Source: Pseudaestuariivita sp.
GTDB taxonomy: Bacteria > Pseudomonadota > Alphaproteobacteria > Rhodobacterales > Rhodobacteraceae
Assembly (NCBI GenBank): GCA_020629995.1
Contig: JAHDCH010000002.1
Coordinates: 1 to 14,471, forward strand
DNA: 14,471 bases
Direction: 5' to 3'
In this document: in pieces, positions 309 to 14,471 of the stretch
Layout of the letters: every line of letters starts with the position of its first letter
How positions within the stretch are numbered: the first letter of the stretch is position 1
The notes under the pieces: model-generated
The model's input: only the letters and a program-made list of their open reading frames with translations
Told to the model about the DNA's origin: nothing
The model's database searches: none
Translations under genes and position numbers: made by a program

Positions 309-360
309 GGGACATTCGGAGTCCCAAGTGCGGGACAAAGGCCGCAGGCCGCCGCACCAT

Positions 361-385
361 CGACGGGCCGCCCCCCGGCACGTCG
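361..385 (+). terminator. Possible hairpin terminator in the accA/GntR convergent gap
   Basis: CGACG (361-365) can pair with CGTCG (381-385), and GCCG (367-370) with CGGC (376-379), with one G-A mismatch between them and a five-C loop. The sequence ATTTGG follows, so there is only a weak T tract. It lies 53 bases after the accA stop, in the 191-base gap 309-499 between two convergent genes. I see no other feature in that gap apart from a small GGGAC/GTCCC stem at 309-325. This could serve either strand or be chance in GC-rich DNA. Confidence 0.25.
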
Positions 386-499
386 ATTTGGCTAGACTGG
401 GCGCGCCATTCATTCTGCGCGCGGACTTGGCGGGCATAAAGCGCATCTGAACACCTGTGGATCGACGCACCGCGGCCCGACGATGGCGCTCGGGGCCCC

Positions 500-3533: not shown

Positions 3534-3609
<76 letters not shown>

Positions 3610-3679: not shown

Positions 3680-5680
3680 TCAGATCAGCAGATCGTCGGA
3701 CAGAGCCTCGAGCGTCGTGTTCCAGATGGTCAGCTGCTGCGCGCCGCCAAAATCCAGAACCACATGCGCCCCGACCTGCGCCCCGTGCGCGGCGATCACA
3801 TCCGCCCCGGTGGTGCCAGTCGCAAAGTCGAAACCGGTGAGATCGACCATGTCGGTGCCATCCTCGAAGTCGCGGATCGTGTCGCGGCCCCAGCGCGGAG
3901 CGTAGACAAAGGTATCGGCATCCGCGCCACCGATCAGGATGTCGTCATTGCCGCCGCCATCCAGCGTGTCGGCCCCGGCCCCGCCGCGCAACAGGTCGGC
4001 ATCCCCGCGCCCAAGCAGCGAATCGTCGCCCGCATTGCCATTGAGAGTGTCGCGCCCGGTGCCGCCATCCAGAAGGTCATCGCCCAGACCGCCCTGCAAC
4101 AGGTCATTGCCCGATTGGCCAAAGACCACATCGCGCCCCGCGCCGCCGACGGCAAAATCGTCACCGCCGCCCAGGAACGCACGGTTGCCCAGGAAATTGC
4201 CGATGAACCGGTCCGCGCCCGACCCTGTGGCTACAAATTCGATCCCGACAAGCGAATCGCTGCCCATGCCAACCGCCGTGCCCGCGCCCAGTGAGATTTC
4301 GATGCCTGCGCTTGCGCCGCGATAGCTGACCTCGTCACGCAGGCCCGCGCCGCCGACGACCGTATCGTCGCCCATCCCGGGCGCCAGAACGTCGGACCCG
4401 GAGCCGCCACCCAGAAGGTCATCGCCGGACCCGGTGGTGATCGTGTCGTCGCCCGACAGGCCCAGCACCATCAGCGCGCCCGTCTCGCCGCCAAGGTCAA
4501 AGGCGGTGTCTTCGGGCAGGCCAAAGGCGTTGGCGTTGTTCGAGGCCGGCGTGCCCACAATGTTGGGATTGGTGCCGCCGAGGGCGATCACCCGGTCAAA
4601 GCCGGTGGCGTCCGTTTCGGCCAGAGCCTCGGCCGCGGCCAGACCGACCAGCTCGTAGGTGCTGGAATAATGCTGCGGCAGGAAGGTTGTCTGCAGCGAC
4701 GACGACAGCGCGTATTGGTCCAGCAAGGGCATCTCGACCTCGAGCCGCCCGCCTTCAAAGCTGATGTGCTCTTCGAGCGCGGTGATGAAGGTGCGCGTCA
4801 AAGGCGCCTGCTGAGGGTCATTTTCCAGATGCGCCGCGTTGTCATAGCGTTCGGGATTGCGGACGATGTCCTGCGCATTGTCGTATTGCGCGTACCAGTC
4901 CGGCGTCACGAAGGACACGCCATCGGCGGCCACCAGAGCCGGATCGTAATCGGTGCGCAGACCCAGGGTGCCCGGGTCGATCCCGGCAGAGGCAAGCGAG
5001 ACCACCTGCAAAGACACCCCCGGCACCGCGTTGAAAGCCGCCGCATCATAGAGCGCAAACATGTCCGCCATGGAACCGCCCAGCGAATGCCCTGACACGA
5101 CGACATCCGTGATTCCGTTCGCTGGATCAGACACATAGGCCAGGACAGCATCAATCAGCGGCTCGAGCTGAGCATAGTAGCGCACCTGGCCCTGCGCGGT
5201 GCCAGCCTCGCCGTCCGAGCCCAGATCGGCATCGGTGCCACGAAAGACAAGGTGCAGCGTCGCGCCGTCGTCGGTGCTGCGCACAGCGACAAGGGCCACG
5301 GCCCCCGCATCGGTGAACGGGACATAGGATCCATCCGATTGCAGCTGATAGTGATTGCGGTAGAGCCCGCCGTCATAGATCCAGTTGTGGTCCAGCCCGT
5401 CGCCATTGCCCGACCCGGGCAAGAGGTCATCGGTAAAGCCCTGCACATCGAACACCAGATCGCCGGCGCCCAGAACGTCAAACCCGAACGGGTCAAGGTA
5501 CAGATCATACCGGTCATAGACGTTCAGGTCGCTGCGGATCCCCGCGCCCGAAGGATCGCCCGCCGCGGCCATGCCGCGAAACCCGGGCTGCATGTCGTCG
5601 TCGCCGCCATAGACGCTGCGGTTGAGCAGAACGACATCTGAAAGGATGCTGGCCAGCGAGGCCGGAAAGGTGGTTGGCAT
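3680..5680 (-). CDS. RTX-type secreted lipase (class 3 lipase-like domain plus calcium-binding repeats)
   Basis: A 666-residue protein. The N-terminal part (about 1-360) is an alpha/beta hydrolase of the class 3 lipase type: LVFRGTD at 144-150 supplies the oxyanion region, GHSLGG holds nucleophile S199, YDNAQDIV gives a likely catalytic D271, and PQHYSST gives a likely H337. From about 408 to 592 there are a dozen or so degenerate GGxGxDxLx nonapeptides, which bind calcium in the RTX beta-roll. The tail (FVYAPRWGRDTIRDFEDGTD to ALSDDLLI) resembles a type I secretion signal; there is no Sec signal peptide. It should be exported to the medium and fold on calcium, cleaving acyl esters. No ABC/MFP secretion genes are in the window. 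The start is well supported by AGGAG (5689-5693) 8 bases before ATG. The gene converges on tRNA-Ala and diverges from the IclR operon. Substrate (triacylglycerol, phospholipid or polyester) is unknown. Confidence 0.88.
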   Translation of the reverse strand: MPTTFPASLASILSDVVLLNRSVYGGDDDMQPGFRGMAAAGDPSGAGIRSDLNVYDRYDLYLDPFGFDVLGAGDLVFDVQGFTDDLLPGSGNGDGLDHNWIYDGGLYRNHYQLQSDGSYVPFTDAGAVALVAVRSTDDGATLHLVFRGTDADLGSDGEAGTAQGQVRYYAQLEPLIDAVLAYVSDPANGITDVVVSGHSLGGSMADMFALYDAAAFNAVPGVSLQVVSLASAGIDPGTLGLRTDYDPALVAADGVSFVTPDWYAQYDNAQDIVRNPERYDNAAHLENDPQQAPLTRTFITALEEHISFEGGRLEVEMPLLDQYALSSSLQTTFLPQHYSSTYELVGLAAAEALAETDATGFDRVIALGGTNPNIVGTPASNNANAFGLPEDTAFDLGGETGALMVLGLSGDDTITTGSGDDLLGGGSGSDVLAPGMGDDTVVGGAGLRDEVSYRGASAGIEISLGAGTAVGMGSDSLVGIEFVATGSGADRFIGNFLGNRAFLGGGDDFAVGGAGRDVVFGQSGNDLLQGGLGDDLLDGGTGRDTLNGNAGDDSLLGRGDADLLRGGAGADTLDGGGNDDILIGGADADTFVYAPRWGRDTIRDFEDGTDMVDLTGFDFATGTTGADVIAAHGAQVGAHVVLDFGGAQQLTIWNTTLEALSDDLLI
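3905..4459 (-). repeat. RTX nonapeptide repeat region inside the lipase gene
   Basis: This stretch encodes tandem units such as GSGDDLLGG, QSGNDLLQG, GLGDDLLDG, GTGRDTLNG and GAGADTLDG. Two blocks (residues about 408-450 and 488-592) are separated by a non-repeat segment around RGASAGIEISLGAGT. The units are too diverged to be a nucleotide-level tandem repeat, so recent slippage expansion is not indicated. Confidence 0.85.
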
Positions 5681-5859
5681 GGTTGGGTCTCCTCCCCTGA
5701 TGAAGACGCGCCCGGCGCGGCCGGGGTCGTATCCGGCCCGGCACGCGGGGCCTCGGCACAGTCACGCAGCGCGCCGCAAAGGGGTTTCAGGGCACGCGCC
5801 AGTTTCTGCGCTCGGCGGCCAAGTGACGTAGCGTCGCGCATCCGCCTGGATTGGGCTAT

Positions 5860-5876
5860 GGTTCACCATGTGAACC
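5860..5876. promoter_or_regulatory. Inverted repeat, likely IclR-type operator
   Basis: GGTTCACCATGTGAACC is a perfect inverted repeat with 7-bp arms and a CAT centre, 64 bases upstream of the IclR-family start. A third half-site GGTTCGCAT (5880-5888) lies in the same orientation exactly 20 bp from the first arm, about two helical turns. IclR regulators bind palindromes or multiple half-sites as dimers or tetramers, so this is the likely binding site for control of the operon and possibly of the divergent lipase gene. The rest of the 260-bp gap 5681-5940 shows the lipase ribosome binding site and nothing else I can name. Confidence 0.6.
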
Positions 5877-5940
5877 GGTGGTTCGCATTGCGCTTGTCAG
5901 GTGCAAAGCGGGCCGCGCAGGCTGACCCCTGAACCAGAGA

Positions 5941-6732
5941 ATGCCCATGTCATCCATCGAACGTGCCCTGACGCTGCTGAGTTATTTCACCGAACCCACG
6001 CCGGTGCTGGGCCTGTCCGAGCTGCAGCGCCTCAGCGGGCGGGACAAGGCGACGGTGCACCGCCACCTGCGCGCCTTGAAGGACAGCGGTTTGGTCGAAC
6101 AGGACGGAACCACACGCGCCTACAGGCTGGGCCCCGAGGTAGAGCGGCTGGCGCAGCTGCGCCGCCGGACCATGGGCGCCCTTGGCACGCTGGCCCCGAT
6201 CGTCGACGCGCTGAGCCGCGATCTGGGCGAGCTGGTGCATGTGTCGGCCTACGAGGCGGGCCAGCTCCACGCGCTGTACCACGCCGATCACGGCGGGCAG
6301 GCGGTGCGGGTGGGGCTGATGACGTCCTGGGCGCCGCCGCTGGTGTCGTCATCGTCGGGCAAGGCCGTGCTGGCCTATGCGCCCGCAGCCGAACAGGACC
6401 TTGCCATCGAGGCCGCCGCCCTGCCCCCTGCCCGCGCCAGCGCCCTGCGCGACGAGCTGCGGCGCACCGCCGAGACCGGATTTGCCACGGCCTGCGACAC
6501 GGTCGAGGTGGGCGTGTCGTCGGTGGGCATCGCCATTTTCGACGCGGCCCGCCACGCGGTTGCGGCCTGCAGCGTCGCCTATCCCACCGTCCGGATGAGC
6601 GACGCGCTGATCCGCCGCGCCCAGGCCGCATTGGGGCGCGCAGGCCCGGCCCTGTGCGCCTGGCAGGGCGGAACGGCACCCGATCACGTCAGCGCCGCAT
6701 GGAGCGCCCAAGGGCTGAGGAGCAGCACATGA
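5941..6732 (+). CDS. IclR-family transcriptional regulator
   Basis: A 263-residue DNA-binding regulator. The winged helix-turn-helix is at about residues 5-65: SSIERALTLLSYF, LSELQRLSGRDKATVHRHLR, then ALKDSGLVEQDG and AYRLGPEV. The effector-binding domain (about 78-250) has the usual APPLVSSSSGKAVLAY motif and the pattern EVGVSSVGIAIFDAARHAVA near the ligand pocket. IclR proteins sense small metabolites, often of the pathway they control. Two ATGs two codons apart (5941, 5947) are possible; the purine stretch AGAGA (5936-5940) is better spaced for 5947. The stop overlaps the aminotransferase start by four bases (ATGA), so the regulator is co-transcribed with its likely targets, and the palindrome at 5860-5876 suggests autoregulation. 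The inducer is unknown. Confidence 0.93.
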   Translation: MPMSSIERALTLLSYFTEPTPVLGLSELQRLSGRDKATVHRHLRALKDSGLVEQDGTTRAYRLGPEVERLAQLRRRTMGALGTLAPIVDALSRDLGELVHVSAYEAGQLHALYHADHGGQAVRVGLMTSWAPPLVSSSSGKAVLAYAPAAEQDLAIEAAALPPARASALRDELRRTAETGFATACDTVEVGVSSVGIAIFDAARHAVAACSVAYPTVRMSDALIRRAQAALGRAGPALCAWQGGTAPDHVSAAWSAQGLRSST

Positions 6733-8075
6733 AGGACAGCAATTTCCTGCGGGAGAACAACGCCCGCCACATGTGGCACCCGATGGCCCATCCCGCCGAC
6801 AGCCAGGCGAACCCGCCCGCCATCATCGTCGGAGGAGAGGGCGTGAGGATCACCGATGTGGACGGGCACAGCGTGATCGACGCGGTGGGCGGCCTGTGGA
6901 ACGTGAACCTTGGCTATTCCTGCCAGCCGGTGAAAGACGCCATCGCGGCGCAGCTGAACGAATTGCCCTATTACTCGACCTTTCGGGGCACCTCGAACGA
7001 CAAGGTGATCGAGCTGAGCTATGAGCTGCGCGAGTTCTTTGCGCCCGACGGGCTGACCCGAGCGTTTTTCACCAGCGGGGGATCGGACAGCGTGGAGGTC
7101 GCGCTGAAGCTGGCGCGCCAGTACCACCGCGCGCGCGGAGAAGCGGGGCGCACCAAGTATATCTCGTTGATGAAAGGCTATCACGGCACGCATTTCGGCG
7201 GCGCCTCGGTCAACGGCAATGCCAAGTTCCGGCAGGCCTACGATCCGCCGCTGGCCGGCTGTATCCACATCCCCGGCCCGTATCTTTATCGAAATCCGTT
7301 TGATGCCGAGACGCCGGAGGCGTTGGCGCAGAAATGCGCGCAGGCGCTGGAGCAGACGATCACGTTCGAAGGCGCGGGCAGCGTGGCGGCGTTCATCATG
7401 GAGCCGGTGCAGGGCGCGGGCGGGGTGATCCCGCCGCATGCCTCTTTCATGCCGATGGCGCGAGAGATCTGCGACCGGCACGGCGTGCTCTTGATCGCCG
7501 ACGAGGTGATCACAGCCTTTGGCCGCACAGGGTCAGAAACAGGCAGCCGTCATTGGGGCGTGCAGCCCGATTTCGCCTGCACCGCCAAGGCGATCACCAA
7601 CGGCTATTTCCCTTTTGGCGCGGTGATGATCCACGAACGGGTCGCGGACGTGTTCGAGGGCGGCGGCAAGGAGGCGAGCGTCGACACCGGCTATACCTAT
7701 TCCGGCCACCCGGTGGGCGCCGCGGCGGCGCTGGCCTGCCTGTCGGAAACGCGGCGCATCCGTCCATGGGAGAACGCGGGGCCAAGGGGCGCAGAGCTGA
7801 AGGCGGGGCTGGAGGCGCTGGCGGGGCGCTATGACGCGATTGGCGACGTGCGGGGCGAAGGGCTGATGGTGGCGATGGAGTTTACCGGCGATCGCGCCAC
7901 CAAATCGATGCCCGACATGGCCGCCGTGGGCCGGTTTCAGAAGGCAGCCTACGAGGCAGGCACGATGGTGCGCGTGTCGGGGCCGAACGCGATTTTCTCG
8001 CCGCCCCTGACGGTCACGGCAGAGGACGTGGCCGAGATGCTGGGCGCGGCCGAGGCCGGGCTGAAGGCGATGTGA
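6729..8075 (+). CDS. PLP-dependent class III aminotransferase (omega-amino acid/amine:pyruvate type)
   Basis: A 448-residue cytoplasmic enzyme transferring an amino group from an amine or omega-amino acid to a keto acid, usually pyruvate. Visible signatures are GGLWNVNLGY (54-63; W57 is typical of omega-transaminases), TSGGSDSVE (115-123), the PLP-stacking GYHGT (150-154), EPVQGAGG (225-232), LLIADEV with D258 contacting the pyridine nitrogen, the Schiff-base lysine K287 in CTAKAITNGYFPFGA, TYSGHPVGAAA, and MVRVSG with R415 in the place of the arginine that binds carboxylates. Length is normal for the family. The start overlaps the IclR stop (ATGA) and the stop TGA shares its A with the TctB start, so coupling is tight on both sides. 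In the operon it probably takes the amino group from the amine released by the downstream gamma-glutamyl enzymes. Exact substrate (taurine, beta-alanine, aminopropanol or putrescine type) cannot be read from sequence. Confidence 0.93.
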   Translation: MKDSNFLRENNARHMWHPMAHPADSQANPPAIIVGGEGVRITDVDGHSVIDAVGGLWNVNLGYSCQPVKDAIAAQLNELPYYSTFRGTSNDKVIELSYELREFFAPDGLTRAFFTSGGSDSVEVALKLARQYHRARGEAGRTKYISLMKGYHGTHFGGASVNGNAKFRQAYDPPLAGCIHIPGPYLYRNPFDAETPEALAQKCAQALEQTITFEGAGSVAAFIMEPVQGAGGVIPPHASFMPMAREICDRHGVLLIADEVITAFGRTGSETGSRHWGVQPDFACTAKAITNGYFPFGAVMIHERVADVFEGGGKEASVDTGYTYSGHPVGAAAALACLSETRRIRPWENAGPRGAELKAGLEALAGRYDAIGDVRGEGLMVAMEFTGDRATKSMPDMAAVGRFQKAAYEAGTMVRVSGPNAIFSPPLTVTAEDVAEMLGAAEAGLKAM

Positions 8076-8812
8076 TGAAGATCAGCACGGCGGCAAAGGG
8101 GATGAGGTCAGAGACCGGCGCGCAGGTGATGCGCACCGGCGGGCCCCGCGTCTTTGCCGCCGAATGCCCGCCTGACGCCAAGTTCAAGATCGAGGACCTG
8201 CTGGCGTTCCGGCGCGGGCGGGGAGACCTTGTCTTTTCGGCGATCGCGCTGATGGTGGCGCTGTTTTTCGCGGTGATGTTCTTTACCGAAACCGGCTGGG
8301 ACAAGCGCAAGCTGCCGGATGGCGGCTGGACGTATTGGCTGCGCCAGTTCGGGATCATCGAGGGCGAAGGGCGGCTGGCACGGCTGGGGCGCGTCCTGAA
8401 ACAAGGCTGGGTCGCGCCGCTGATCTGTCTGGCGGTGCTGGTGCCCGCGGCGGTGCTGAACATGCGGGCGTCGTGGCGGGTGCACCAGTGGCGCCGCCGG
8501 TTCGGGCAGCCTGTGTCGATGCGCTATGAAGGCGAGATGTGGCTGCGGGCGCTCGAATTCGTCGGCTGGTTTGTCGCTTATACGCTGCTGGTGCCGGTGC
8601 TGGGTTACCTGGTGGCGACGCTGCTGCTGGGCACGCTGCTGCCGTGGCGGCTGGGCTATCGCGGTGTGCGCTGGATGGGGATCTGCCTCGCGGCGTCGAT
8701 GGCGATTGTGCTGGTGTTCCGCACGGGGCTGCAGATCAAGACGCCGGTGAACATCTGGCTTTATGCGCAGCTGCCGGATGGCCTGCGCGGTTTCATGCAG
8801 ACGTGGTTCTGA
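8075..8812 (+). CDS. tctB: TTT transporter small membrane subunit (TctB family)
   Basis: A 245-residue membrane protein, the small permease subunit of a secondary, binding-protein-dependent tripartite tricarboxylate transporter. Hydrophobic segments are at about 51-71, 111-130, 159-190 and 197-217, the four-helix plan of TctB. TctB proteins are usually about 150-180 residues; here a charged 50-residue N-terminal extension and a 40-residue loop between the first two helices make it longer. The TctB family is poorly conserved, so the call leans on topology and on its place directly before TctA. ATG 8075 overlaps the aminotransferase stop by one base (TGATG); a GTG at 8072 is possible. TctA starts one base after its stop. 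Confidence 0.87.
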   Translation: MKISTAAKGMRSETGAQVMRTGGPRVFAAECPPDAKFKIEDLLAFRRGRGDLVFSAIALMVALFFAVMFFTETGWDKRKLPDGGWTYWLRQFGIIEGEGRLARLGRVLKQGWVAPLICLAVLVPAAVLNMRASWRVHQWRRRFGQPVSMRYEGEMWLRALEFVGWFVAYTLLVPVLGYLVATLLLGTLLPWRLGYRGVRWMGICLAASMAIVLVFRTGLQIKTPVNIWLYAQLPDGLRGFMQTWF

Positions 8813-8813
8813 G

Positions 8814-10307
8814 ATGGAGGCGCTGTGGACAGGGCTGGCCAACATCACGCAGCCGGGCGTTCTGGTGGCGATGCTGATCGGGTCGGTCGGAGGGCTGGCG
8901 ATTGGGGCGGTGCCGGGGATCGGGCCGGCGATTGCCATCGCGATCCTGCTGCCTGCCACGGTGTTTCTGGATGATCTGGTGAGCCTGGTCCTGCTGCTGG
9001 GCGTGTACGGGTCGAGCATGTACGGCGGGGCGATCCCGGCGATCCTGATCAACACGCCCGGCACGCCGGTCAACGCGCTGACCACCTATGACGGCTATGC
9101 CCTGACGCGGCGCGGTCAGGCGGCGCGAGCGCTGGCGCTGGCCTATTCGGCGTCGTTCTTTGGCGGGTGCTTTTCGATCCTGATCGCGCTGGGGGCGCTG
9201 ATGGCCTTTGGCCCGTACCTGCGCGATCTGGGCGCGCTGTTCGGGCAGCGCGACATCTTTATGGCCGCCGTTCTGGGTGCGGTGCTGTTGATCGCGGCGC
9301 ACCGCAAGACGATGGGCATTGCGGCGCTGCTGTTCGGCTTTGGCATGTTGATCGCGATGATCGGGCGGCAATCGCTCAAGCAGATCGACCGGTACACGTT
9401 TGACCAGCCCTACCTTTTCCCCGGGTTCAACCTGATCGTGGTGATCGTTGGCATATTTGCCATCTCACAGGCGCTGTTTCTGCTGACCGGCAAGGATGAC
9501 GACCCGCCGCGCGCCCGGCTGAAAGGAACGATGCTGGCCGGGTTCGCCGAGCTGGCGCGGTATCGCATCGTGACGCTGTGTTCGGCCGCTTACGGCACGA
9601 TCATGGGCATCATCCCCGGCGTGGGCGAGTTTGTGGCGCAGTTTTTCAGCTATTCCACCGCCCGCGCCCTGTCGAAAGAGCCGGCAAGGTTTGGCCATGG
9701 CGCGCCCGAGGGGCTGGTGGCCAGCGAGACGGCGAACAACGCGGTGCCGGCGGCAGCGATGATCCCCCTTCTGGCCCTCGGCGTGCCGGGCGAGGCGCTG
9801 ACGGCGATGATGATGGTCGTGTTCTTTGATGCGGGGATCAAGCCGGGGCCGGACATATTCGAGAGCAATCCCGATTTTCTGTTTTCGCTGTTCATCGCGC
9901 TTTTGCTGGTGAACATCATCGTGGTGATCACGCTGCTGACCACGTCGCGGCATATCGCGCGGATGATCTATATCCCCAACCGCCTTTTGGGCGCGTTCAT
10001 CCTGATGCTGAGCTTTGTCGGCGTCTTTTCGATCCGCAATTCGTTCACCGATTGCATGTTTGCCGCCGGGTTTGGGTACCTTGGCTACATCCTGCGGCGG
10101 CTCGACTGGCCTTTGGTGCCGATCGTGCTGGGCCTCGTCCTTGGGTCGATCATGATCGAGAAGCTGACCGCCGGTGCGGGGCAGATCAAGACAGCCGCTG
10201 ACCTCATCAACCGCCCGGTGTCGGGCACGCTATTTGCGGCGATCCTTGTGGTGATCGCCGTGACCCTCTGGAGCACGTGGCGCCAGCGCCGCGTGGATCC
10301 GACATGA
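8814..10307 (+). CDS. tctA: TTT transporter large membrane subunit (TctA family)
   Basis: A 497-residue polytopic membrane protein, the main channel of the TTT importer, driven by an ion gradient. The family's two inverted halves are both visible: GLAIGAVPGIGPAIAIAILL (28-47) and MGIIPGVGEFVAQFFSY (264-280), each with the PGxG signature. The near-invariant YGGAIPAILINTPGTP (70-85) with TYDGYALTRRGQAARAL follows, and in the second half SETANNAVPAAAMIPLLALG and VPGEA. About 12 hydrophobic segments are spread along the chain. Length is typical. The start ATG lies one base after the TctB stop, where the family N-terminus begins; an upstream extension in frame would lie inside tctB. It should pair with the TctC homologue encoded 28 bases downstream. 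Confidence 0.97.
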   Translation: MEALWTGLANITQPGVLVAMLIGSVGGLAIGAVPGIGPAIAIAILLPATVFLDDLVSLVLLLGVYGSSMYGGAIPAILINTPGTPVNALTTYDGYALTRRGQAARALALAYSASFFGGCFSILIALGALMAFGPYLRDLGALFGQRDIFMAAVLGAVLLIAAHRKTMGIAALLFGFGMLIAMIGRQSLKQIDRYTFDQPYLFPGFNLIVVIVGIFAISQALFLLTGKDDDPPRARLKGTMLAGFAELARYRIVTLCSAAYGTIMGIIPGVGEFVAQFFSYSTARALSKEPARFGHGAPEGLVASETANNAVPAAAMIPLLALGVPGEALTAMMMVVFFDAGIKPGPDIFESNPDFLFSLFIALLLVNIIVVITLLTTSRHIARMIYIPNRLLGAFILMLSFVGVFSIRNSFTDCMFAAGFGYLGYILRRLDWPLVPIVLGLVLGSIMIEKLTAGAGQIKTAADLINRPVSGTLFAAILVVIAVTLWSTWRQRRVDPT

Positions 10308-10335
10308 CCAACGATAAACCACAGGGAGACCAAAA

Positions 10336-11268
10336 ATGAAAAAACTGATGGCATCCGCCGCGCTGGCGGTGATGACAGCGGCCAGCCCCGCGCTGGCTGA
10401 TTACCCCGATGGGCCGGTGCAATTCATCGTGCCGTGGCCGCCGGGCGACTTCGAAGACATCCTGACCCGCATGATCGCAGACGACATGGCCAAGGCCACA
10501 GGTCAGGCCGTGTCGGTTGTGAACCGCCCCGGTGGCGGCGACGGCCCCTTCCCCGGCGCGCTCGAGGTGCTGGCCGCGCCCAATGACGGGTCGGTTGTCG
10601 GCTCTTTCGTGATCGGCGTGCCGGTTGTGGGCCCCAACATCGACATCGGGATCGAAGCGGACAGCTTTGTCCCCGTGGGCATCTTTCTGACCTATCCGTT
10701 CGTGCTGGCCGCTGGCGCCGACGCGCCCTATTCCAACATGGAAGAGCTGGCCGCCCATGCACAGGACAATGACGTCGTGCTGGGCCACTTTGGCGCGGGG
10801 CTGACGCCGACCAAGGTGTCGTTCGTGGCGGCCAAGACCATGGGTTTTGAATTTGCCGATGACAGCGCCTTTGACCTGCTGGATTGCAACACGCTGTCCT
10901 CGGGCGACGCGGATGTGATCAACACCACGCTGGCGCTGATCGAGCCGTGCCTTGATGAGATCAAGGTGCTGGGCAACATCGGAGCGGACCCGATTGCCAA
11001 GCTGGAAGGCGTAGAGACGCTCGCCGCGCAGGCGGGCATCGCGCCGCTGGAGCTGTGGAACGGTCTGTTCGTGACCAAGGGCACACCGCAGGAGGTGATC
11101 GACACGATTGCCGGGATCGCGAAACAGACAATGGCCAGCGAGGCCGCCCAGACCCTGATGCAAGAGACCGGCGCCGCCGTCTACTGGCAGGATCAGGCGA
11201 CCAGCCAGGCCCGGATCGAGGCGGACCGCGCGACCAACGCCGAGTTCTCGCAATTCCTGTCTGAATAA
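10336..11268 (+). CDS. tctC: TTT transporter periplasmic substrate-binding protein (TctC/Bug family)
   Basis: A 310-residue binding protein delivering substrate to TctAB. A Sec signal peptide MKKLMASAALAVMTAASPAL is followed by A-DYP, with cleavage expected after A21. A strong Shine-Dalgarno (AGGGAG, 10323-10328) lies 7 bases before the ATG. The two family loops that wrap the ligand are recognisable but changed. The first reads VPWPPGDFEDILTRM (32-46), where Bug proteins normally have PPGG and a later Asp. The second is VNRPGGGDGPFPGA (62-75). Two cysteines, C184 and C205, could form a disulfide. Bug proteins classically bind carboxylates; the changed loop leaves room for a nitrogen-bearing ligand, consistent with but not proving an amine substrate. 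A stem-loop directly follows the gene. Confidence 0.9.
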   Translation: MKKLMASAALAVMTAASPALADYPDGPVQFIVPWPPGDFEDILTRMIADDMAKATGQAVSVVNRPGGGDGPFPGALEVLAAPNDGSVVGSFVIGVPVVGPNIDIGIEADSFVPVGIFLTYPFVLAAGADAPYSNMEELAAHAQDNDVVLGHFGAGLTPTKVSFVAAKTMGFEFADDSAFDLLDCNTLSSGDADVINTTLALIEPCLDEIKVLGNIGADPIAKLEGVETLAAQAGIAPLELWNGLFVTKGTPQEVIDTIAGIAKQTMASEAAQTLMQETGAAVYWQDQATSQARIEADRATNAEFSQFLSE

Positions 11269-11275
11269 AGGGAGC

Positions 11276-11297
11276 GGGGCGGCGCACAGGCCGCCCC
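11276..11297 (+). terminator. Stem-loop between tctC and the amidotransferase gene
   Basis: GGGGCGGC (11276-11283) pairs perfectly with GCCGCCCC (11290-11297) around loop GCACAG, 7 bases after the tctC stop and 8 before the next ATG. There is no T run, so full termination is unlikely. Such hairpins after binding-protein genes protect the upstream mRNA or partly attenuate, giving more binding protein than enzymes. It also occupies the place where the next gene's ribosome binding site would be. Confidence 0.6.
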
Positions 11298-11305
11298 GAC
11301 CAACC

Positions 11306-12031
11306 ATGGACCGCATCCGACTGGGCCTGCTTCAGGTCAACCACGACCGCAGCGAAGAGATCGGGGATCATTTTCCCGACGACAGCCACCGTTTCCGCGA
11401 CCTGTTCGACCAGCTTGAGCAGCGCTTTACCTATCGCGTCTACATGACCGAAGGCGGAGAGGTGCCAAAGGATCCGCTGGAGCAGGACGCGTTCCTGATC
11501 ACCGGCTCGCCCCTGTCGGCGATGGACGACCATCCGTGGATGCCGGACTTGATCGCGTTTATCCGCGCCTGCGACGCCGCGCGCACGCCGCTTTTGGGCT
11601 GCTGCTTTGGCCATCAGGTGATCGCCCGCGCCTTGGGCGGCACGCTGGGAAAACGGACGGGCGGCTATAACGTGGGCGTCGAGACCACGCATTTCCATGC
11701 GCGGCGCCCGTGGATGGGGCCCGAGGCGCAATTGCCGATGTATGTCTTTCACGAGGACCACGTCACCACCCTACCGGTAGGATGTGACCTCTTGGGCGGG
11801 TCCAACGCCTGCCCCATCGGCAGCTTTGCCAAGGGCGATCACATCTTTACCACCCAGTCGCACCCCGAGATCGACCGCCGGTTCATGGAGGCCGTGATGG
11901 CCCATGTCGAGGGCCACGGCACCGACCTGAGCGCAGGTAGAGCGACGATGGATCAGGAGCCGCAGGGCGCGATCTTTGCCGCATGGGCGGCAGAGTTTTT
12001 CAAAGGGGGGCGGCATGCTCAATCTGGCTGA
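11306..12031 (+). CDS. Class I glutamine amidotransferase-like protein, probable gamma-glutamyl amide hydrolase
   Basis: A 241-residue cytoplasmic protein with the class I GATase triad: nucleophile C100 in GCCFGHQ (98-104), H186 and E188 in SHPE (185-188). LITGSPLSAMDDHPWM (64-79) supplies the oxyanion-strand region. It is a stand-alone GATase with no synthetase domain, so it should cleave a gamma-glutamyl bond rather than channel ammonia. Known relatives acting beside GS-like ligases are the aniline-pathway AtdA2/TdnT proteins; PuuD does the same chemistry but belongs to the C26 branch. I infer that it releases glutamate from the gamma-glutamyl amide made by the ligase two genes downstream. 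No Shine-Dalgarno stands before ATG 11306; the preceding 8 bases follow a hairpin, so translation may be weak or depend on reinitiation. Its 3' end overlaps the P450 gene by 17 bases. Confidence 0.87.
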   Translation: MDRIRLGLLQVNHDRSEEIGDHFPDDSHRFRDLFDQLEQRFTYRVYMTEGGEVPKDPLEQDAFLITGSPLSAMDDHPWMPDLIAFIRACDAARTPLLGCCFGHQVIARALGGTLGKRTGGYNVGVETTHFHARRPWMGPEAQLPMYVFHEDHVTTLPVGCDLLGGSNACPIGSFAKGDHIFTTQSHPEIDRRFMEAVMAHVEGHGTDLSAGRATMDQEPQGAIFAAWAAEFFKGGRHAQSG

Positions 12032-13229
12032 CCACGACAGTTTCACGCGCGGGGTGCCGCACGACACCTTTGCCCGGATGCGGGCCGAGGCACCGCTGCA
12101 CTGGACCCCCGAATTTGCCGGGCAAAGGGGCTTTTGGTCGCTGACCCGGCACGCCGATATCGTGGCCGCCAACCGCGACCCAGGCACCTTCAGCAGCGCG
12201 CAGGGCATCCGGATCGAGGATCAGAGCCATGAGGAATACCTCGCCCGGCGCACCTTTCAGGAGACCGACCCGCCCGAGCATTTCGCCACCCGCCGGATCG
12301 TGCAGGGCGCCTTTGCCAAGCCGGTGATCGCCGAGTTCGAAGGCGTGGTGCGCGAGCTGGCGCAGGATATCGTCGCGCGGGCCGTCCGCACCGGCACAGG
12401 CGACGGCGTGGCGATGATCGCCAAGGAACTGCCGATGAAGATGCTGGGCCGCATCCTGGGCGTGCCCGACGCGGACCTTGATTGGCTGGTCGAAAAGGGC
12501 GACGCGCTGATCGGCAACACCGACCCTGATTTCACCGACACAGTGCTGGATAAGGTCGACACCGACGCCTACGCGATGATGCCCTTCCGCTCGCCCGCGG
12601 GGGTCGAGCTGTATGATTACGCCGAGGACGTGCTGGATGGCCGCCGCCCGGTGACCGACGATGGCATCCTGCGCCGGGTGATGGACGCGACAGGGGCGAT
12701 GGACCGGCTGGCCTTCAAGAACTTTTTCTGCCTGCTGGTTGCCGCCGGAAACGACACGACGCGCTATTCCATCGCGATGGCGCTCTATCTTCTGGCGCGC
12801 GACCCGGCGCTGTATAACACGCTGAAAACCGGCGATTATTTCGATACGGCAGGGGATGAGTTCATCCGCCTTGCATCGCCCACCCTGCACTTTCGCCGCA
12901 CGGCGACGCAGGACATCGAGATGCACGGACAGACGATCCGCGCGGGCGACAAGGTGATCTTGTGGTTCGTGTCGGGCAACCGCGATGGGGCGGTGTTTGA
13001 CGCGCCTGATACTGCGGTGCTCGACCGGCCCTCGAACCGCAACCTCGCCTTTGGGCAGGGCGGACCGCATGTCTGCCTTGGCATGTGGCTGGCGCGGCTG
13101 GAGCTGCGCGTGGTGCTGGAAGAGATCTGCCGCCAGACCAGCGCCCTGACCCTGACCGGAGAGCCGAGCTGGACCCGGTCGAATTTCATCTGCGGGGTCA
13201 AGACCCTGCCCCTGACCATTTCGCCATGA
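12015..13229 (+). CDS. Cytochrome P450 (bacterial class I, soluble)
   Basis: A 404-residue haem monooxygenase. Signatures in order are the C-helix region ETDPPEHFATRR (83-94), the I-helix oxygen-activation motif AGNDTT (244-249), the K-helix ExxR as E282-R285 (EFIRLASP), the LHFRRTATQDIEMHG strand (291-305), and the haem-binding loop FGQGGPHVCLGMWLAR with cysteine ligand C354. Length is typical and there is no membrane anchor. The style resembles the CYP108/111/125/142 group, though the family cannot be assigned by eye. ATG 12015, with AGGGGGG just upstream, lies 17 bases inside the end of the amidotransferase gene, so they are coupled. Class I P450s need a ferredoxin and reductase; neither is in the window. 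Lying between hydrolase and ligase, it most likely hydroxylates the gamma-glutamyl amide or the free amine. A longer upstream start is inside the previous gene and lacks similarity. Confidence 0.96.
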   Translation: MLNLADHDSFTRGVPHDTFARMRAEAPLHWTPEFAGQRGFWSLTRHADIVAANRDPGTFSSAQGIRIEDQSHEEYLARRTFQETDPPEHFATRRIVQGAFAKPVIAEFEGVVRELAQDIVARAVRTGTGDGVAMIAKELPMKMLGRILGVPDADLDWLVEKGDALIGNTDPDFTDTVLDKVDTDAYAMMPFRSPAGVELYDYAEDVLDGRRPVTDDGILRRVMDATGAMDRLAFKNFFCLLVAAGNDTTRYSIAMALYLLARDPALYNTLKTGDYFDTAGDEFIRLASPTLHFRRTATQDIEMHGQTIRAGDKVILWFVSGNRDGAVFDAPDTAVLDRPSNRNLAFGQGGPHVCLGMWLARLELRVVLEEICRQTSALTLTGEPSWTRSNFICGVKTLPLTISP

Positions 13230-13242
13230 GGACACCCACACC

Positions 13243-14471
13243 ATGAAGACGCGCGCGCTCTTTTGTGACCTGCTGAACCTGCCCCGGGGCAAGATCGTAC
13301 CACCGCATGTGGCGCAGGGCGGCATCGGCTTTGCCCGGGGTGTGTTCGGCACCACATTCGACCGCGATCTGATCCCGGTGCCGGGCGCGGGCGTGTTCGA
13401 CGGCATCCCCGACATGGAGCTGCTGCCCGAGGTCACGCGCCCGTCGTGGCGGCCGGATGAACAGCTGGTGCTGGGCGATCTGCACACTCACGGCGCGCCC
13501 TTTGGCCTGTGCCCGCGCAGCGCGCTGAAACGCGCGATTGCGGGGTGGGAAGCGCAGGGCCTGAGCCCCATGGTGGGGCTGGAGTTCGAGGCCTATGTCT
13601 TTCAACAGGACGACGACGGCACATGGCGGCCCTATGACACGCCGGGCGCCTTTGTCTATGGCACCGGTCCGCAGAACGATCCCGAAGGGCTGATGGAGGC
13701 GATCTGGGACACCGCAGAAGACGCGGGCCTGCGGATCGAGTCGATGAACGGCGAATATGACAACGGCCAGTTCGAAATGACCCTGTGCTTTGACGAAGCG
13801 CTTAAGGCCTGCGACGACGCCTTTGTGTTCCGCACGCTGGCCCGAGAGGTCGCGCTGGACCGGGGGCTGATGCTGACCTTCCTGCCCAAGCCGATCCCCG
13901 AACGGGGCGGATCGGGCCTGCACGTGAACTTTTCCTTCACGCAGGACGGCAGCAACGTGATCGCGCCGGATGGCAACCTGAGCGACGTGGCGCGGCAGGC
14001 CATGGCGGGGCTGATCGCGCATCACGAAGGGCTGGCGGGGCTGCTGGCGCAGACGGTGAACTCTTATGACCGGCTGACGCCTGCATCGATGGCCGGGTAT
14101 TGGGCCAATTGGGCCGACGATCACCGGCTGGTGACGACGCGCTGCGCGACGGGCTCGCCCAAGTCGGCGCGGCTGGAGCATCGGATGGCGGACGGGGCGA
14201 CGAACCCCTACATCGCCGTGGCTGCGGTGTTGCAGGCGGCCTTGCTGGGCGTGACCCAAGGGCTGGAGCTGGGCCCCGCCGAAGACCTTGACGGGCTGGA
14301 AAACGTGCGCGCCACGCGGCACGTGCCAGCGTCGCTGGACAAGGCGCTGGCGGCGCTGGATGCCGATGCCGAACTGCGGATGGCAGTGGGCGAAGAGCTG
14401 TGCGACGCGATCCTGTTCCTCAAGCGGGACGAGTTCAAACGGCTGGACGGCAAGACGGTGGACGAGGTGCG
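13243..14471 (+). CDS. Glutamine synthetase-like gamma-glutamyl amide ligase (3' end outside window)
   Basis: The frame opens at ATG 13243 (GAGGA 10 bases upstream) and is still open at the window edge, giving 409 residues of a protein usually about 430-450. It has the GS ATP/glutamate site: CDLLNLPRGK at the start, GLEFEAYVF with metal ligands E114 and E116, NGEYDNGQFEMT with E171 and E178, GGSGLHVNF with H227, NSYDRL (273-278), and SARLEHRMADGATNPY with R310, R314 and D317. The N-terminal FDGSSI loop that binds ammonium in true GSI is not visible; the matching region reads GFARGVFGTTFDRD. This fits relatives that ligate amines (PuuA, GlnA3, IpuC, AtdA1 types) rather than ammonia. It would use ATP to join glutamate to an amine. 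It starts 13 bases after the P450 stop, in the same operon. That it is a nitrogen-assimilating GlnA is unlikely from context and missing motif, but cannot be excluded. Confidence 0.92.
   Translation, partial: MKTRALFCDLLNLPRGKIVPPHVAQGGIGFARGVFGTTFDRDLIPVPGAGVFDGIPDMELLPEVTRPSWRPDEQLVLGDLHTHGAPFGLCPRSALKRAIAGWEAQGLSPMVGLEFEAYVFQQDDDGTWRPYDTPGAFVYGTGPQNDPEGLMEAIWDTAEDAGLRIESMNGEYDNGQFEMTLCFDEALKACDDAFVFRTLAREVALDRGLMLTFLPKPIPERGGSGLHVNFSFTQDGSNVIAPDGNLSDVARQAMAGLIAHHEGLAGLLAQTVNSYDRLTPASMAGYWANWADDHRLVTTRCATGSPKSARLEHRMADGATNPYIAVAAVLQAALLGVTQGLELGPAEDLDGLENVRATRHVPASLDKALAALDADAELRMAVGEELCDAILFLKRDEFKRLDGKTVDEV

Follow-up and report, generated by a model that had tools for sequence, protein, structure and literature searches.

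A conserved cytochrome P450 and glutamine synthetase-like ligase operon of Rhodobacteraceae, proposed to head an aromatic ethylamine pathway that ends in homoprotocatechuate cleavage

We analysed a stretch of 14,471 bases from Pseudaestuariivita sp. (63-71% G+C; hereafter the window), which is the first part of scaffold C167 (33,558 bases) in a fragmented draft genome of 2.83 Mb that is about 70% complete (G000). The window carries an eight-gene operon on the + strand that ends in a trio of genes for a glutamine amidotransferase (GATase)-like hydrolase, a cytochrome P450 and a glutamine synthetase (GS)-like ligase. The first gene encodes an IclR-family regulator (5941..6732; PF09339 and PF01614 over cut-off) whose top NCBIfam match is the PcaR/PcaU/PobR subfamily, at 81 bits and under that model's cut-off. 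It is followed by a class III omega-aminotransferase (6729..8075, ATG at 6729; PF00202) of the PRK07481 subfamily (NF005683, 681.7 bits, cut-off 575), which carries the description 'hypothetical protein'. Then come a TctB-like small membrane subunit (8075..8812; PF07331, 27.9 bits, slightly under the cut-off of 29.1), placed between the aminotransferase and the TctA large membrane subunit (8814..10307, ATG at 8814; PF01970, 397 bits), and a TctC solute-binding protein (10336..11268; PF03401, 57.6 bits). The trio consists of a class I GATase-like gamma-glutamyl hydrolase (11306..12031), which passes the cut-offs of both PF00117 (47.2 bits) and PF07722 Peptidase_C26 (22.0 bits), the P450 (12015..13229; PF00067, 292 bits to PDB entry CYP125MRCA) and a GS-like gamma-glutamyl amine ligase that is incomplete in the window (13243..14471; PF00120, 264 bits). 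The first-pass annotation of this DNA had named the same eight genes; open reading frame coordinates and profile matches place all of them on this strand and in those families, and its junctions of -4, -1, +1, +28, +37, -17 and +13 bases are reproduced from the coordinates and the sequence.

The end of the window cuts the ligase frame, base 14471 being the last before a run of 100 Ns in the scaffold. The last 55 bases before this run recur exactly after it, and when the two sides are joined over the overlap the ligase is 417 amino acids long. The gene order of the operon recurs in other genera. The + strand of 5600-14471 showed no promoter-like site, and terminator-like hairpins matched 11 times in the same region compared with 4.9 (standard deviation 2.6) in shuffled sequences. 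One of them, a hairpin with TTTTT at 11974-11995, lies inside the end of the GATase gene near its junction with the P450 gene and speaks against a single transcript; it could lower expression of the P450 and the ligase, or it could be a chance occurrence.

Conservation of the trio was assessed in two surveys. A P450 scan of contigs from one genome per species gave 219 relatives, of which the best 80 loci were kept, and all counts over 80 loci refer to these. Among their sources are Rhodobacteraceae, SAR116, Rhizobiaceae, Dongia, Granulosicoccaceae and Comamonadaceae (Limnohabitans). The GS gene lies at most 400 bases downstream of the P450 gene, on the same strand, at 79 loci, the sole exception (L075) being a record that stops about 280 bases past the P450 match. 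A GATase (>55 bits) is found at most 1.2 kb away at 68 loci, and 29 of them have it on the opposite strand. The second survey covered 295 genomes from 294 genera of the one family Rhodobacteraceae, which are not independent samples, with thresholds of E 1e-60 for the P450, E 1e-95 for GS and E 1e-165 for the aminotransferase, and with HpaD required to exceed its curated cut-off. Here the P450 is present in 57 genomes, GS in 58 and both in 56, so that GS occurs in 56 of the 57 P450-positive genomes and in 2 of the 238 others. The two genes lie at most 3 kb apart in 55 of the 57, the exceptions being G145 (GS found 25 kb away) and G166 (P450 at a contig end). The first-pass annotation had held that its proposal would fall if the trio were not conserved together in relatives; across both surveys the three genes are kept as neighbours. 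One genome, G113, shows a mixed arrangement, with the aminotransferase and GS (76% identical to the GS of Pseudaestuariivita atlantica) on the + strand and the P450 (57% identical to that of the window) and a ferredoxin on the - strand of contig C41:75312-83436.

The residues expected of each enzyme were followed through alignments from which frames of unexpected length were left out (16 of 78 GS, 9 of 78 P450 and 1 of 56 GATase frames). The ligase stays under the cut-off of all five NCBIfam GS-type models that it matches, including those for type III GS, PuuA and GlnA, and its highest-scoring solved relative is a glutamate-methylamine ligase. When the window sequence was aligned with 62 of the 78 members of its cluster, the metal-site residues Glu114, 116, 171, 178 and 312, His227 and Arg314 were kept in all 63 sequences, but the column of Glu327 held Leu in 42, Met in 20 and Ile in 1. 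Glu327, whose column was located through the aligned motifs, is the ammonia-activating residue of true GS. Because the metal site is kept and this position is aliphatic, the protein is a predicted amine ligase, a function that this combination of residues fits. Both sequence traits of the GS-like gamma-glutamyl organic amide synthetases (GoaS), a GS catalytic domain with its metal site and the loss of Glu327, are found here. Ordinary glutamine synthetase was set aside as an identity for the protein, since the GlnA-type models that it matches remain under cut-off and the Glu327 position is aliphatic.

The other two members of the trio also retain their catalytic residues. The triad Cys100, His186 and Glu188 is present in 56 of 56 aligned GATase sequences, whose highest-scoring solved relative is gamma-glutamyl peptidase 1. 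In the P450, the haem cysteine, the ExxR motif and the Asp-Thr pair of the I-helix are invariant in 70 of 70 aligned sequences, as would be expected of a working monooxygenase. A ferredoxin gene accompanies the P450 at 41 of the 80 loci, but none lies in the window. All ten P450-positive genomes tested hold a similar 2Fe-2S ferredoxin, 39% identical in the window's own genome; in G113 one copy adjoins the P450.

A substrate class is suggested by a relative from the same genus. In P. atlantica (L031) the operon runs on past GS, on the + strand, into genes of the homoprotocatechuate (3,4-dihydroxyphenylacetate; hpa) pathway. Here the P450 gene (10004-11221), preceded by a GATase gene, is followed by GS (11218-12474), which overlaps HpaF (12474-12869, a homologue under cut-off) by one base; HpaF in turn overlaps HpaE (12862-14370; 775.5 bits, cut-off 638). 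Then follow HpaD (14900-15880; 385.5 bits, cut-off 321), an aromatic amino acid decarboxylase (15880-17277), HpaG (17274-18110, a homologue under cut-off) and HpaH (18107-18907; 372.8 bits, cut-off 351.5). From GATase to HpaH adjacent genes overlap, save for 529 bases ahead of HpaD, and within this one operon HpaD, HpaE and HpaH of the lower pathway pass curated models. The top solved relatives of the decarboxylase are DOPA decarboxylase (360 bits) and tyrosine decarboxylase (316 bits). The first-pass annotation had called the substrate of the operon unknown; the continuation into genes for ring cleavage and for the decarboxylation of aromatic amino acids narrows it to a class.

Neighbour clustering over the 80 loci likewise brought out decarboxylase, hpa and ferredoxin genes. 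With stricter cut-offs an hpa homologue is found at 42 loci, a ring-cleavage dioxygenase at 26 and the decarboxylase at 28, and with looser ones at 43, 27 and 28. In a Dongia-like lineage genes for a 2Fe-2S ferredoxin and a ferredoxin reductase come after the P450-GS pair, and HpaE-like and HpaG-like genes stand beside it, all under curated cut-offs, while the dioxygenase there is of LigB type, from another protein family than HpaD (131 bits to HpaD_Fe, cut-off 316). The decarboxylase, as assigned by clustering, lies directly upstream of the P450 at two of these loci (L070 and L078), and the 1.2 kb on either side of the P450 showed no GATase in this lineage. The same decarboxylase also occurs within hpaFED-decarboxylase-GH runs that lack GS and P450, on five P450-negative stretches (L153 and L156-L159), and HpaD and the decarboxylase start at most 3 kb apart in 34 of the 79 family genomes that have both; this ties the decarboxylase to homoprotocatechuate independently of the P450. 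At L160 the aminotransferase adjoins an hpa operon far from the P450, and for this reason the P450/GS/GATase cassette has the look of an addition whose starting compound and product are both amines.

Co-occurrence across the 295 family genomes points the same way, with the reservation that the p-values overstate independence, all genomes coming from one family. HpaD exceeds its cut-off in 49 of the 57 P450-positive genomes versus 42 of the 238 P450-negative ones (Fisher p = 2e-22; odds ratio 29), the decarboxylase is present in 51 versus 86 (p = 6e-14; odds ratio 15) and the aminotransferase in 54 versus 65 (p = 6e-22). The eight P450-positive genomes without HpaD over cut-off include the incomplete genome of the window. 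Taken from the other side, the P450 occurs in 45 of the 74 genomes that hold the decarboxylase, the aminotransferase and HpaD, versus 12 of the 221 others, which leaves 29 genomes with this core and no P450.

Gene content, conserved order, catalytic residues, co-occurrence and the continuity with hpa genes in P. atlantica lead us to propose that the operon probably encodes the first part of a pathway by which an aromatic ethylamine, with tyramine as the likeliest candidate, is broken down by way of homoprotocatechuate meta-cleavage; we infer each reaction, substrate and the order of steps, and above all the P450 step. According to this model, the amine would be supplied by the aromatic amino acid decarboxylase or by the medium, and the GS-like ligase would join the gamma-carboxyl of glutamate to it at the expense of ATP. 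With a 2Fe-2S ferredoxin as its donor, the P450 would then hydroxylate the masked compound, in the preferred version converting gamma-glutamyl-tyramine to gamma-glutamyl-dopamine, after which the GATase-like enzyme would take the glutamate off. The class III aminotransferase would yield 3,4-dihydroxyphenylacetaldehyde, an aldehyde dehydrogenase would convert this to 3,4-dihydroxyphenylacetate, and HpaD, HpaE, HpaF, HpaG, HpaH and HpaI would lead on to central metabolism. Masking the amine would prevent it from reaching the haem iron in free form and the catecholamine from cyclising. Decarboxylase, aminotransferase, aldehyde dehydrogenase and HpaD would by themselves take DOPA or dopamine to central metabolites with no oxygenase ahead of ring cleavage; an added hydroxylation, with tyramine entering and dopamine leaving, suits the cassette because glutamylation, oxidation and deglutamylation start and end with a free amine. 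The first-pass annotation had put forward a cycle of glutamylation, P450 oxidation, hydrolysis and transamination, and this is strengthened by the conserved trio, the loss of Glu327 in every aligned ligase and the methylamine-using solved relative, the rest of the cycle, import of the amine by Tct included, staying a prediction. More tentatively, the genes may amount to a complete, undescribed and widespread tyrosine route, in which tyrosine would be decarboxylated to tyramine, gamma-glutamylated, hydroxylated on the ring by the P450 to give gamma-glutamyl-dopamine, freed of glutamate, transaminated and passed on to homoprotocatechuate meta-cleavage. The glutamate, as a tag that can be taken off again, would enable the P450 to stand in for the flavin hydroxylase HpaBC on a catecholamine that is otherwise reactive; we put this fuller version forward as a possibility that falls somewhat short of an even chance.

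Several observations weigh against these proposals. Physical linkage is looser than co-occurrence: the P450 has the decarboxylase or HpaD within 20 kb in no more than 17 of the 57 P450-positive genomes, and the aminotransferase within that distance in 30. Among the 56 loci of at least 19 kb, 19 have neither an hpa gene nor the decarboxylase, including five Limnohabitans loci and L083 (Sulfitobacter). A loss of HpaB specific to P450-positive genomes is unsupported, HpaB (TIGR02309, E 1e-3) being matched in 7 of 57 versus 21 of 238 (Fisher p = 0.45). There are 34 HpaD-positive genomes with neither P450 nor HpaB, four of which (G020, G053, G213 and G245) have hpaFED-decarboxylase-GH runs, and thus some P450-free source of the HpaD substrate exists; for the same reason, lack of HpaB alone is no proof that the P450 replaces it. 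Three of the 80 loci (L042, L047 and L052) carry genes for HpaB and a flavin reductase close to the P450; if the P450 produced the catechol, HpaB would be superfluous there. The GATase is absent within 1.2 kb of the P450 at 12 of the 80 loci; productive deglutamylation may not be general, and the enzyme may serve only as a safety valve, by analogy with aniline degradation. HpaI has no match in the P. atlantica stretch, its cluster having no member from that locus.

The window's own genome adds points on both sides. No hpa genes stand behind GS on the scaffold: beyond the gap lie the remainder of GS, a repeat and then, on the - strand, an aldehyde dehydrogenase gene (C167:14832-16271; L149:1832-3271) that is 86% identical to the gene after HpaH in P. 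atlantica, and a gene labelled by eye as a zinc-type alcohol dehydrogenase (C167:16275-17321; L149:3275-4321), a similar pair following HpaH in P. atlantica. A search of this 70%-complete genome turned up neither HpaD (E 1e-40) nor the decarboxylase (E 1e-60). In favour of the proposal are the hpa genes recognised there by similarity, HpaF, a partial HpaE and a partial HpaH: contig C155 carries, in order, an aldehyde dehydrogenase, a UPF0261 gene, a MarR-like frame (label by eye), HpaF and the start of HpaE, and C219 carries the end of HpaH. On the other hand, neither contig has a match to HpaI. HpaB (TIGR02309) has no match in the 70%-complete genome or in its same-genus relative G072.

Some further features were noted in passing. 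The UPF0261 (PRK02399) gene stands beside an aldehyde dehydrogenase and hpa or P450 genes at 19 of the 80 loci (for instance L150:3356-4588 and L042:11320-12579). The repeat behind GS (C167:14662-14826) belongs to a dispersed element: the stretch separating HpaE from HpaD in P. atlantica (L031:14379-14690) has matches at seven or more sites of the window's genome, this one and window positions 358-489 on the - strand among them. Upstream of the operon, the window also holds a gene for a 666-amino-acid protein (3680-5680, - strand) that matches lipase class 3 over a short segment (residues 187-231) and has RTX calcium-binding repeats, and a tRNA-Ala (GGC) gene (3534-3609, + strand).

Three other explanations were weighed. 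The same cassette could act on phenylethylamine: the P450 would turn gamma-glutamyl-phenylethylamine into gamma-glutamyl-tyramine by para-hydroxylation, and the catechol would be made after deamination by a different enzyme (HpaBC in genomes that have it). This is possible above all at the three loci that also carry HpaB, and HpaB occurs in a few P450-positive genomes, but 42 of the 57 have HpaD with no HpaB match, and the cut-off of the model for the reductase of p-hydroxyphenylacetate hydroxylase (NF045919) is reached in none of the 80 genomes tested (49 of them P450-positive); since 48 of the 80 match at E 1e-40, the model was set aside as an uninformative proxy for this other type of 4-hydroxyphenylacetate hydroxylase. 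A separate 3-hydroxylase of these two kinds is therefore unrecognisable in most of them, and we regard the phenylethylamine explanation as unlikely. Another possibility, which we consider quite unlikely, is oxidative N-dealkylation, in which the P450 would hydroxylate the carbon beside the amide nitrogen, freeing glutamine and an arylacetaldehyde, while the GATase merely undid excess glutamylation. The loci without a nearby GATase would agree with this, as would aniline and naphthylamine degradation, where the oxygenase acts on the gamma-glutamyl conjugate and a GAT-like enzyme holds the conjugate level down (PMC11335346), and the morpholine/piperidine-type P450s that oxidise N-heterocycles (PMC9477822). 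The aminotransferase would then be superfluous, yet it belongs to the same operon here and is present in nearly all P450-positive genomes. A cassette for a non-aromatic or some other primary amine, with its hpa neighbourhood reflecting a shared regulatory or genomic-island effect, would suit the methylamine-using relative of the ligase and those loci with no hpa or decarboxylase gene within reach (for example L083, L097 and L104), but is improbable given the odds ratios for HpaD and the decarboxylase, the GS-HpaF overlap in P. atlantica and the different dioxygenase type that accompanies the pair in Dongia and its relatives.

The proposed tyramine route can be set beside known systems. By analogy, its logic is that of the glutamylate-then-oxygenate scheme of aniline and 1-naphthylamine degradation, whose genes are AtdA1-A5, TdnQTA1A2B and NpaA1-A5; the oxygenase family, lower pathway and accessory genes differ. 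In those systems, the oxygenase cannot act on the free amine and acts on the gamma-glutamylated one, and the GAT-like enzyme counters over-accumulation of the conjugate in the aniline system and is dispensable in the naphthylamine case (PMC11335346). The GS-like ligase, GAT-like enzyme and oxygenase adjoin there as they do here, and the product is of catechol type for ring cleavage (PMC11335346). Unlike the aniline systems, the operon has a P450 (PF00067) in place of a two-component Rieske dioxygenase and includes an aminotransferase, a Tct transporter and an IclR regulator, and its proposed arylethylamine would feed a homoprotocatechuate rather than a catechol lower pathway. In an N-heterocycle degrader (morA/pipA and Gulosibacter molinate-strain clusters), a GS gene whose number adjoins those of P450 and ferredoxin reductase genes was overexpressed and was read by the authors as part of nitrogen assimilation (PMC9477822). 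The P450s there attack cyclic secondary amines, and the passages on them mention no hpa genes or aminotransferase; the two are set apart by description rather than by P450 (CYP151) sequence. Gamma-glutamyl-dopamine is a gastropod metabolite formed by gamma-glutamyl conjugation of dopamine, an animal inactivation reaction (PMC6454038), in contrast to the bacterial catabolic operon considered here.

The proposed order of glutamylation, oxidation and deglutamylation is also that of the Puu route. In that putrescine pathway (PuuA-PuuD) the amine is glutamylated and oxidised and the glutamate is then removed. Here, however, the ligase scores 203 bits against a GGputSyn cut-off of 650, and the hydrolase scores higher with PF00117 (47.2) than with PF07722 (22.0). 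A polyamine pathway of this type was set aside, since no PuuB-type oxidase was found among the ten window proteins scanned with Pfam and the ligase stays under the cut-off of the PuuA model. The lower part of the proposed route would be shared with the hpa pathway and with the 3,4-dihydroxyphenylacetate catabolon of Pseudomonas putida U, which reportedly serves tyramine and dopamine. The classical hpa route is not known to include a glutamylation or P450 step.

The P450/GS/GATase operon is real, conserved and functionally coherent, and an aromatic ethylamine is its proposed substrate class. The combination of glutamylation, a P450 and homoprotocatechuate ring opening seems not to have been described before. 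The first-pass annotation knew of no described pathway with this exact gene set; none of this make-up is among the matches listed in the open-access PMC literature, and no bacterial pathway combining gamma-glutamyl-tyramine or gamma-glutamyl-dopamine with a P450 appears among them either, although most subscription papers lie outside this scope and the result is no proof of novelty. Marine and other bacteria probably break down tyramine-like amines with these genes. If the proposal is true, the P450 would join the oxygenases known to act on gamma-glutamyl-masked amines, and a function would be assigned to the P450-GS pair of 57 of the 295 family genomes and of other proteobacterial groups. It would also provide a defined tyramine- or dopamine-consuming cassette, relevant to marine algal-bacterial chemistry and to the enzymatic synthesis of catecholamines.

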